From an uncultured Pelagibacteraceae bacterium (GTDB lineage Bacteria; Pseudomonadota; Alphaproteobacteria; Pelagibacterales; Pelagibacteraceae): DNA of 64,000 bases. Numbering within the stretch: position 1 is the first letter of the stretch; every line of letters starts with the position of its first letter. Of this stretch, positions 10,128 to 44,923 are shown piece after piece. The translations under genes and the position numbers were made by a program. The notes under the pieces are model-generated. The model searched no databases and was not told the origin of the DNA. It saw nothing but the letters and a program-made list of their open reading frames with translations. The stretch is taken from contig CACMYJ010000002.1 in assembly GCA_902617895.1 (NCBI GenBank), positions 62,001-126,000 on the forward strand, in the 5' to 3' direction.

Positions 10128-10778
10128 ATGGGTAACAACATTGAAATTTCTGAAAAAATTGAAAGATATATTAATAATTTTAGTTTTAAACTAAGCCCAG
10201 TTCAAAAAGAAATTATAGATTATAATAATACACTTGGAAATGAAAAGAGAATGCAAATAGCGATATCTCAATGTTATTTTCTCCATTTAATAATAAAAAT
10301 ATCTAATATAAAAAATGTGCTTGAGATTGGAACTTTTACTGGTTTAAGTGCACTTTCTATTGCTATTGCACTTCCAGAGGATGGAAAACTTACTGCACTT
10401 GATAAAAATAAAGAGACAAGCAAGATTGCAGTAAGTTTTTTTAAGAAAGCCAAACAAGATAAAAAAATTCAAACGATTGTAAAACCTGCACTAGATAGTT
10501 TAGATGAATTAAAAAACCTAAAATATGATATGGTTTTTATTGATGCAGATAAGCTCAACTATAAAGAATATTATGAAAAATCAATTAAGATGATTAATAA
10601 AGGTGGTTTAATCATCATTGATAATGTTTTATGGCGTGGTGAGGTCGCAGATGAAGATAAAATGGATAAATTTACATTAAATATAAGAGAATTAAATGAG
10701 TACGTTTCAAGTGATGAAAGGGTAGAACAAATAATTATCCCATTGGGAGATGGAATGACTGTTTGTAGAGTTTTATAA
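10128..10778 (+). CDS. SAM-dependent O-methyltransferase (caffeoyl-CoA/COMT type)
   Basis: This 216-residue class I methyltransferase is of the catechol/caffeoyl-CoA O-methyltransferase family. The SAM-binding motif I is 'VLEIGTFTGLSALSIA' near residue 64. 'YDMVFIDADKLNYKEYY' near residue 128 and 'GGLIIIDNVLWRGEVAD' near residue 158 are the family motifs that hold the divalent metal. The substrate cannot be read from the sequence. Its stop overlaps the start of trhO by one base. Confidence 0.9.
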   Translation: MGNNIEISEKIERYINNFSFKLSPVQKEIIDYNNTLGNEKRMQIAISQCYFLHLIIKISNIKNVLEIGTFTGLSALSIAIALPEDGKLTALDKNKETSKIAVSFFKKAKQDKKIQTIVKPALDSLDELKNLKYDMVFIDADKLNYKEYYEKSIKMINKGGLIIIDNVLWRGEVADEDKMDKFTLNIRELNEYVSSDERVEQIIIPLGDGMTVCRVL

Positions 10779-42666: not shown

Positions 42667-43620
42667 TTATATTTTTACATTGTTTAATGCATTATTTTTA
42701 AAAATATTTGCCTCTCTAATATATCTTCTTACCATTTGTGTTGATTTATGACCAGTCATAGCCATTATACTTCTCTCATCGGCACCTGACTCGGCTGCAA
42801 CTGTTGCAAAACCAGATCTTAAACTATGACCAGAAAAATTTCTATTTTCAATACCTGCTAAATTCAAGTATTCTTTCATTAACAAAACTACAGATTGATC
42901 AGTTAATCTTTTATCTGTTAATGATAAACCTTTCGAAAATCTTCTAAAAACAGGTCCAGACTTAATTTTAGAAATTTCTAACCATTTTTTTAAGTTTTTT
43001 ACTGGACAGTAAATATCATTGCTGAAGTAGGGTAGTCCTTTCATCATTCCTTCACCTAATTGATCAGTTTTTGATTTTTTTATAATGACTTTAAGACCTT
43101 CAGGAACAAATTCTAAATCTTCATAATCAATAGAGGTTAATTCACTTCTTCTGAAACCTCCACCAAATCCAATTAAAATTATTGATTTATCTCTGAGTTT
43201 TTTTATTTCCTTAATTTTTTGATCATTTATTACATTAATAATTGATTTTAAGTGATTGATTAATATAGGTTTTTTACCTTTCTGAATACTCCCTTTTACC
43301 CTTCTAATTCCCATTAAATTTTCAACTATAATAGGATGTTTGGTGTCTAAATAATGTCCTTTTAACTTATGAACCATACTTATTGACACCAACCTTCGTC
43401 TTAAAGTGCTTATTTTTGAGCTTTTAGAAAGATGTGTTAAATATAAAGAAACTATTTTTGGCTCTGTTGGCAAGGAATTCAGAGCATGGTTTGCACAAAA
43501 AATTTCGAAGTCTTTAAAATCAGATTTATAGGCTCTTAAAGTGTTATTTGCTTTAGAACTTTTAAGATTATTTAAAGTTGCTTCATGTAGCGATTTTAGT
43601 TCTGTGGTCAGCTCATTCAT
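42667..43620 (-). CDS. Tyrosine recombinase / site-specific integrase
   Basis: This 317-residue tyrosine recombinase has a complete active site: Arg157 in 'GGGFRRSELTSI', His265 and Arg268 in 'FSGHSLRSGFAT', His291 in 'MTGHKSTQ' and nucleophile Tyr300 in 'MVRRYIREA'. The N-terminal SAM-like/core-binding domain spans about residues 10-100 ('NTLRAYKSDFKDFEIFC'). It is neither obviously XerC nor XerD. No excisionase, phage structural or transposition gene is adjacent, so it may be a stand-alone or relic integrase within a variable region. Confidence 0.9.
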   Translation of the reverse strand: MNELTTELKSLHEATLNNLKSSKANNTLRAYKSDFKDFEIFCANHALNSLPTEPKIVSLYLTHLSKSSKISTLRRRLVSISMVHKLKGHYLDTKHPIIVENLMGIRRVKGSIQKGKKPILINHLKSIINVINDQKIKEIKKLRDKSIILIGFGGGFRRSELTSIDYEDLEFVPEGLKVIIKKSKTDQLGEGMMKGLPYFSNDIYCPVKNLKKWLEISKIKSGPVFRRFSKGLSLTDKRLTDQSVVLLMKEYLNLAGIENRNFSGHSLRSGFATVAAESGADERSIMAMTGHKSTQMVRRYIREANIFKNNALNNVKI

Positions 43621-43631
43621 ATTATTGCTAT

Positions 43632-43650
43632 TGATAACAATTAATTATCA
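43632..43650. repeat. Short inverted repeat upstream of the integrase
   Basis: TGATAA and TTATCA flank a 7-base spacer about 12 bases upstream of the integrase start. The geometry (short arms around a 6-8 base centre) is that of an autoregulatory or recombination core site, but the arms are short and AT-rich, so chance is a real possibility. Confidence 0.25.
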
Positions 43651-43705
43651 CTAGTAATAATATAACTCATTTAACAAGTCAAGCATTTAATGTAGAAGAA
43701 TATTT

Positions 43706-44350: not shown

Positions 44351-44428
44351 AGCTTTAGATTAAGTTATCCCCACTATCCCCACCTGTTAAAAACTAGATA
44401 TATTCAACGATAAAGTGATACATACAAC

Positions 44429-44641
44429 CTACTCTATCTGATATTGTTGTAAATGAATTAAGAGGCAACTCTTAACTGACCAGCTAGGGAAAAACCGAGA
44501 GGTTCAAGCCTAGAGGGCAGAAAGCTCTACAGAGTAGCGCTAAAATTGTAGGGTGGACGGCATGGCGGTAGCGCATACAACGACGTGCCAAAAACTACTG
44601 TTCTTTGTACCTGAAAAGGTGCAAGGAAACAGGGTTTTTTT
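44429..44641 (+). ncRNA. Structured non-coding RNA of unassigned family (or structured leader of the alkyltransferase gene)
   Basis: A block roughly half G+C by eye, far richer than its surroundings, contains consecutive helices. CTACTCT (44429-44435) pairs with AGAGTAG (44531-44537) and encloses three hairpins: TTAAGAG/GCAA/CTCTTAA (44458-44475), CTAGG...CCTAG with inner AACC/GAGA/GGTT (44484-44513), and AGGGC/GCTCT (44514-44528). Downstream TTGTA (44546)/TACAA (44576) and GGCA (44559)/TGCC (44586) interleave as a possible pseudoknot. It ends in a strong intrinsic terminator. No RNase P, SRP or tmRNA signature is recognisable. The 5' end is not known. Confidence 0.7.
44598..44641 (+). terminator. 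Intrinsic terminator of the structured RNA
   Basis: CTGTTCTTTGTACCT (44598-44612) pairs with AGGTGCAAGGAAACAG (44617-44632) around a GAAA tetraloop, with one wobble and a small mismatch, and is followed by seven T residues (44635-44641). It is the clearest Rho-independent terminator in the window. It lies 6 bases before the alkyltransferase start codon. Confidence 0.9.
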
Positions 44642-44647
44642 CTGTTT

Positions 44648-44923
44648 ATGATCATAAAAGGCACTAAATTTCAGCTAAAAGTTTGGAAATACTTAAAAAC
44701 TATACCAAAAGGTAAACTAAGGACTTATTCTCAGGTAGCAAAAGCAATTAAAAAACCAAAAGCAGTAAGAGCTGTAGCAAATGCCATAGGAAAAAATCCT
44801 TATGCTCCCAAAATACCTTGTCACCGGGTAATAAGATCAGATGGTTCTCTAGGTGGTTATTCGGGAAAAGGTGGAATAAATACCAAGAAAAAACTACTAA
44901 AATTAGAGGGTGTTTTACTCTAA
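44648..44923 (+). CDS. Minimal MGMT-family protein (methylated-DNA-protein cysteine methyltransferase domain)
   Basis: This 91-residue protein consists only of the DNA-binding/active-site domain of O6-alkylguanine-DNA alkyltransferases. 'FQLKVWKYLKTIPKGKLRTY' starts near residue 8, and the acceptor Cys58 is in 'KIPCHRVIRSDGSLGGYSG'. Having Cys, it is not an alkyltransferase-like (ATL) protein, which has Trp there, but it lacks the N-terminal domain of Ogt/Ada. It directly follows the structured RNA and its terminator, so its expression may depend on read-through or an internal start. Confidence 0.87.
   Translation: MIIKGTKFQLKVWKYLKTIPKGKLRTYSQVAKAIKKPKAVRAVANAIGKNPYAPKIPCHRVIRSDGSLGGYSGKGGINTKKKLLKLEGVLL

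Follow-up and report, generated by a model that had tools for sequence, protein, structure and literature searches.

A stand-alone copy of the IMES-2 RNA gene in a Pelagibacteraceae genome: comparative evidence on its fold, its flanking signals and its relation to the neighbouring alkyltransferase gene

The window, a stretch of 64,000 nucleotides from the genome of an uncultured Pelagibacteraceae bacterium, contains a G+C-rich, strongly folding block at 44429-44641, followed closely by a gene for O6-methylguanine-DNA methyltransferase (MGMT). Within this block, positions 44451-44591 of the forward strand match the RNA family IMES-2 (RF02035) over its full length (cmscan, Rfam 15: score 160.9 bits, E 2.2e-42; gathering threshold 54.7), with model positions 1-141 of 141 covered and both ends complete. 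The match is the sole non-tRNA Rfam match in the whole window and the only IMES-2 match in the host genome (1.17 Mb in 22 contigs, 84% complete). The block is therefore not a new RNA family. The earlier note, which had recognised no known family here and had put the block forward as an undescribed element, is overturned on both counts by a match far above the gathering score, an outcome that it had itself named as refuting. The family was described by Weinberg et al. in 2009, who reportedly found IMES RNAs to be very abundant. The window copy shares with IMES-2 all 141 model positions, the helices, the conserved loops and a marine SAR11 host; nothing detected speaks against its membership, and it is a stand-alone copy of this catalogued RNA gene. 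The present comparison adds to the nested covariance model a kissing helix between the P4 and P5 loops, a promoter-like array, a 3' terminator hairpin and an account of the neighbouring genes. The identity of the block as IMES-2, together with the anatomy of the gene, is very nearly certain. The features are as follows, where the numbering P1-P5 is that of this analysis.

44365-44383, forward strand: tandem box TTATCCCCA CTATCCCCA, a putative activator site; approximate order-wide consensus TTATCCACA-CTATTCACAG
44414-44420, forward strand: AGTGATA element of the -35 region, its position kept across the upstream sequences
44439-44447, forward strand: probable extended -10, TG-A-TATTGT, read by eye
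44451-44591, forward strand: IMES-2 RNA (RF02035), covariance-model match
44458-44475, forward strand: P1, 7-bp hairpin with GCAA loop; 100% of alignment cells paired, double changes at 4 of 7 pairs
44476-44520, forward strand: P2/P3, two-step hairpin with 4x4 internal loop and GAGA loop; double changes at 9 of 11 P2 pairs and 3 of 4 P3 pairs
44524-44554, forward strand: P4, hairpin with 15-nt loop; double changes at 8 of 8 pairs
44537-44542, forward strand: P4-loop side of the proposed kissing helix, GCGCTA, from comparison
44559-44589, forward strand: P5, hairpin with 13-nt loop; double changes at 5 of 9 pairs
44569-44574, forward strand: P5-loop side of the proposed kissing helix, TAGCGC, from comparison
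44598-44641, forward strand: intrinsic terminator, hairpin 44598-44632 with T-run T7 at 44635-44641
44648-44923, forward strand: neighbouring MGMT gene, 91-aa O6-methylguanine-DNA methyltransferase domain with PCHR present (PF01035, E 2.5e-34; TIGR00589)

The compositional and folding character that first drew attention to the block was confirmed. G+C is 49% in the RF02035 match, as against 24-36% across the 2-kb bins of the window, and the minimum free energy of 44429-44641 is -76.3 kcal/mol, compared with a mean of -51.0 kcal/mol for shuffled sequences (z -5.86; none of 200 shuffles as low). Three of the helices that had been proposed from the single sequence, the GCAA hairpin, the two-step GAGA hairpin and the GGCA/TGCC helix, correspond to P1, P2/P3 and P5 of the Rfam model, and all of them covary. 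For the comparison, 115 loci were reduced to 92 unique cores by removal of duplicates, with locus L055, whose contig is cut inside the RNA, left out. When the Rfam helices and one extra helix are laid over these sequences, 94.6% of cells are paired, compared with 83.1% in shuffles, and the covariation score is 0.397, compared with 0.173 in shuffles and at most 0.098 when the helices are slid out of register, these controls taking no account of kinship among the sequences. The compensatory changes that the earlier note had suggested looking for in homologues are present, with both sides changed in 32 of the 45 pairs. RNAalifold, given no input structure, returned 36 pairs, 28 of them with double changes. 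The helices are not perfect throughout: one P2 pair is open in 51 of the 92 sequences, the innermost P4 pair is open in 26 of 92, and one of the nine P5 pairs is non-standard in all 92. Two further pairings of the earlier note found no such support. A full upstream complement of the 7-mer in the proposed long-range CUACUCU/AGAGUAG helix occurs at only 7 of 115 loci, the window included, and the upstream sequence is nearly identical in all seven. For the proposed TTGTA/TACAA pseudoknot, some 5-nt complement lies in the 30 nt before position 1 at 15 of 115 loci, in AT-rich DNA and not counting the window's own TTGTA, which straddles the edge of position 1. The upstream partners of both pairings read as parts of conserved promoter-like DNA.

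The helix added to the Rfam structure pairs GCGCUA of the P4 loop with UAGCGC of the P5 loop. Taken alone, it has 96.9% of its cells paired, compared with 94.6% in shuffles and at most 54% in slid versions. It contains 12 double-change cells, against a shuffle mean of 1.0 (none of 500 shuffles as high), and three pairs with double changes, a number matched in 4 of 500 shuffles; its five further pair types, compared with 3.9 in shuffles, are not unusual, being reached by 100 of 500. The 17 mismatched cells are spread over three of the six pairs, mostly at the helix ends. When alignment gaps are removed, the two loops carry matching segments in the same register, namely CAC against GUG in L102 and in the sequences of genera g2 and g8, GUGC against GCAC in L036, and UA against UA in L048 and L111. 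In L036, L102, L052-L054 and L056 the loops are complementary to each other and neither is self-complementary, which argues for pairing of the first loop with the second and against a dimer of like loops; the first loop is also self-complementary in most sequences, so that only those few separate the two pairings. An interaction in which the first loop pairs with the second loop of a separate molecule would look, in this comparison, just like an intramolecular kissing interaction. The comparison supports a loop-loop kissing interaction that would join the last two hairpins.

Upstream of the RNA lies a promoter-like array, made up of the tandem box, the AGTGATA element and the extended -10, that recurs in six genera regardless of the neighbouring gene. 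Among 113 unique upstream sequences (115 before removal of duplicates), an AGTGAT-like element stands 34-37 nt before Rfam position 1 in all 113, as against 41 of 2260 shuffles, a control that ignores kinship. The tandem box has a best match of at least 13 of 19 positions in 109 of the 113, compared with 42 of 2260 equal-length shuffles, where the consensus was drawn from the very sequences scored, themselves related. By eye, the extended -10 takes the form TGnTATnnT in the window's genus (g1) and TGATTTAAT in g5. In 46 of the 109 sequences, box and element are separated by 21-24 nt, and in the other 63 by 30-32 nt; the two classes differ by about one helical turn, which suggests that a regulator binds to a single face of the DNA. 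The tandem boxes resemble DnaA boxes. A replication origin at the locus was considered and rejected: exact copies of TTATCCACA are mostly scattered in seven genomes, where the closest spacings are two copies 145 bases apart in G013 and three within 5.4 kb in G011, and exact copies are absent at IMES-2 in the carriers G001, G007 and G015.

From the position of these elements, transcription would start at about 44455, and the RNA would end in the T-run, with a length of about 185 nt. The terminator that the earlier note described is real, a hairpin with T7 that ends 6 nt before the MGMT start codon at 44648. The 60 nt downstream of the RNA fold stably in each genus, and a hairpin followed by a T-run of at least five is present at 69 of 73 loci in g1, 6 of 7 in g6, 3 of 3 in g2, 1 of 1 in g8 and 1 of 1 in g9, but at only 3 of 30 in g5, where a clear T-run after the 3' hairpin is missing from 27 of the 30 loci.

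Farther upstream in the window, a near-palindrome at 43620-43662 (18-nt arms, 16 of 18 positions matching by eye, 7-nt spacer) precedes a lone XerC/XerD-like tyrosine recombinase gene at 42667-43620 on the reverse strand, whose NCBIfam scores lie below the equivalog cut-offs. The element was not listed by the repeat finder, which requires an exact 9-nt seed, and a similar palindrome was seen by eye before the same recombinase gene in several IMES-2-negative genomes. It could be a dif-type site for a single recombinase.

Of 397 genomes drawn from the order, 200 carry IMES-2, as do 75 of the 151 of good quality, with one match at E <= 0.001 in each positive genome and carriers in 6 of the 13 genera. 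None of 14 control genomes has a match, and of 385 genomes drawn across the class only three do, all in the window's family. A covariance model built here from the 92 unique sequences again found 200 of 397 genomes, making it unlikely that the absences are merely divergent copies; many genomes are incomplete, and some single absences may be assembly gaps. With no match in 197 of the 397, IMES-2 is not universally needed in the order. When 14 negative genomes were searched with laxer filters for overlooked divergent copies, G003 alone gave a hit up to E 1 (at E 0.67); additional weak hits, there and in positive genomes, reach at most 20 bits against the cut-off of 54.7. A pattern search of named genomes returned at least 119 stretches, 112 of them in Pelagibacter, Pelagibacteraceae or Pelagibacterales records; among the matches listed, all 112 of these match our model, and none of the 7 stretches from named non-SAR11 organisms does. 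IMES-1 (RF02034), tried as a possible substitute in IMES-2-negative genomes, has no match in any of the 397 genomes, and the controls likewise have none.

In two IMG/VR contigs, IMES-2 sequence is cut off by the end of the contig. One of them, L271, is a temperate-phage contig; the 10.4 of its 17.8 kb that were analysed encode two integrase-like proteins, a primase/helicase and a product with a weak match to CII. Its positions 10287-10360 correspond to IMES-2 model positions 45-118 with 80-97% similarity, beginning at the P3 hairpin, some 100 nt away from where the gene for a 335-aa integrase starts; model positions 1-44 align too, but poorly, and the contig ends before the end of the gene. 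This single case, of a phage contig ending in IMES-2 close to an integrase gene, suggests that the IMES-2 gene may serve as a phage attachment site. Genes for tRNA and tmRNA serve as phage attachment sites, and the arrangement in L271 would be of the same kind, differing in that it is known from one, truncated contig. A search for another viral relative of the L271 integrase found none. In the other contig, L281, a T4-like dam gene adjoins IMES-2 sequence that is the same as in cellular L118 along 102 nt, and the contig is probably an assembly chimera. Wider viral carriage was not borne out: a first pattern gave six matches, none of which matched the model, and a second gave 16, of which two were real; a third brought 52 new contigs, none significant (best E 0.057), a pattern for the 3' half found none, and a fifth brought 21 new contigs, again none significant (best E 3.1).

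The cellular setting of the RNA was surveyed in 40 SAR11 genomes, of which 22 carry IMES-2 and 18 lack it; completeness is at least 90% in 39. Matches to Hfq, to ProQ and to 6S RNA (RF00013) were each found in 0 of the 40, and no 6S match was found in 44351-44660 of the window at E up to 5. Among 14 named control genomes Hfq was found in five and ProQ in E. coli only, and both 6S RNA and Hfq were detected in Caulobacter and others. An Hfq- or ProQ-dependent small RNA is thus unlikely. Since 6S RNA and Hfq are missing from genomes both with and without IMES-2, there is no sign of IMES-2 as their replacement.

The gene beside IMES-2 depends on the genus. In g1, MGMT lies downstream at 46 of 47 loci, the remaining one being cut by a contig end, whereas at nine loci in five other genera MGMT is beside IMES-2 at none (flanks reaching at most 1.5 kb, and for L033 0.5 kb on the downstream side). 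Of seven longer stretches examined, six come from those genera, and in these six the downstream gene is convergent in five and an unrelated RmuC gene in one. The neighbours are SNase and SRAP in g2, SelO and RmuC/exonuclease genes in g8, and in g6 MnmA with a membrane-like protein that has no Pfam hit, a pair also seen by eye in g5 and g9. In L078 and L082, as in g1 with its MGMT, the RNA has genome-repair genes beside it (SRAP in g2, RmuC with an exonuclease in g8), which may be coincidence. Conversely, MGMT is kept in all 14 sampled IMES-2-negative genomes, picked among the most complete g1 genomes from the 197 without IMES-2, and there it lies close behind the upstream ORF; by eye both the RNA and the promoter array are absent from these 14 loci, which give no Rfam match. 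In an MGMT protein tree built from few columns the cassette changes state four times, at least two of these being forced by supported branches, so that loss, or gain, of the RNA cassette as a whole has probably happened on more than one occasion. Where IMES-2 is present, the MGMT start codon lies a few nt past the terminator; where it is missing, the gene closely follows other ORFs. The MGMT of the window, of L063-L075 and of L077 is reduced to the DNA-binding/active-site domain. As neighbours change between genera and MGMT stays when the cassette is missing, the comparison shows IMES-2 to be a free-standing RNA gene, of which MGMT is not a part. Of the two possibilities that the earlier note had left side by side, a free noncoding RNA is favoured by the conserved promoter-like array, the 3' hairpin, the heavy covariation and the differing neighbours; cis-regulation of the alkyltransferase as the main role is not supported, given the nine loci outside the genus and the 14 sampled RNA-less genomes that keep MGMT.

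The reading we favour, to which we give a probability of about three in four as a whole, is that IMES-2 is a free-standing noncoding RNA of about 185 nt, present once in this genome and equipped with a promoter and a terminator of its own. It would be transcribed from about 44455 and end in the T-run, and would fold into a compact structure locked by the kissing P4 and P5 loops. We infer that the RNA acts in trans, sequestering or scaffolding a bound protein in the manner of 6S or CsrB, and not by Hfq-assisted antisense pairing; protein binding as the mode of action is itself a tentative proposal, somewhat more doubtful than probable. In g1, MGMT may be expressed by read-through past the terminator as a side effect. 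In a rival view, IMES-2 would be a leader or attenuator of the alkyltransferase gene, sensing a signal while its terminator gates MGMT. The near-constant position of MGMT in g1 speaks for such a leader, as does the start codon a few nt past the T-run in the sequences read, from which MGMT probably needs either read-through or a start within the terminator. The leader is nevertheless very improbable, in view of the other genera, where MGMT is next door at 0 of 9 loci and the following gene is convergent or RmuC, of the 14 sampled RNA-less genomes in which MGMT sits close behind another ORF, and of a conserved structure that appears to offer no alternative terminator/antiterminator pairing.

Trans action could take other forms. 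IMES-2 might bind RNA polymerase and so do the work of 6S RNA, whose Rfam model matches 0 of 40 genomes of this order although it detects the RNA in Caulobacter; like 6S RNA it would be free-standing and of similar length, and the likeness would extend further if IMES-2 proves as abundant as IMES RNAs are reported to be by Weinberg et al. (2009). It differs in having no match to the 6S covariance model at E up to 5 and in its topology, a row of hairpins with kissing loops in place of a long hairpin with a central bubble. Both RNAs are missing from 18 of the 40 genomes, which leaves no pattern of replacement; 6S RNA may also simply go unrecognised. We regard the analogy as decidedly unlikely. 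An Hfq-independent antisense RNA that pairs with mRNAs through unpaired conserved segments fares only slightly better and is still unlikely: some single-stranded segments, among them the GAAA stretch in the P2-P4 linker, are invariant in the 92 sequences, but the large conserved loops appear to be engaged with each other, the 40 genomes have no Hfq or ProQ match, and it is the whole fold, rather than a seed, that is conserved. In the most far-reaching picture, a long shot, IMES-2, locked by its kissing loops, would be the core of an RNA-protein machine or a global regulator in bacteria with no recognised Hfq, ProQ or 6S RNA, its synthesis tied to replication or growth state by a promoter with helically phased DnaA-like boxes, its cassette lost whole in some lineages and its gene used as a phage attachment site.

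In the open-licence literature searched, IMES-2 is named in one paper, on the giant squid genome, which mentions it once as possible environmental contamination (PMC6962438). For P. ubique, Meyer et al. 2009 (PMC2704228) list tmRNA, SRP RNA and RNase P RNA, and their text does not contain the phrase '6S RNA'. Words beginning with IMES are absent from PMC5069720 and PMC2864571. A function for IMES-2 was not found in the open-licence literature.

SAR11 bacteria are among the most numerous in the sea. For their RNA IMES-2, the evidence argues against models based on Hfq, ProQ or MGMT. Among the parts that the comparison opens to testing are the loop-loop helix, the promoter and its likely regulator site, and a likely start and end of the transcript. 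It also provides natural pairs of genomes in which IMES-2 is present or absent at an otherwise intact locus.
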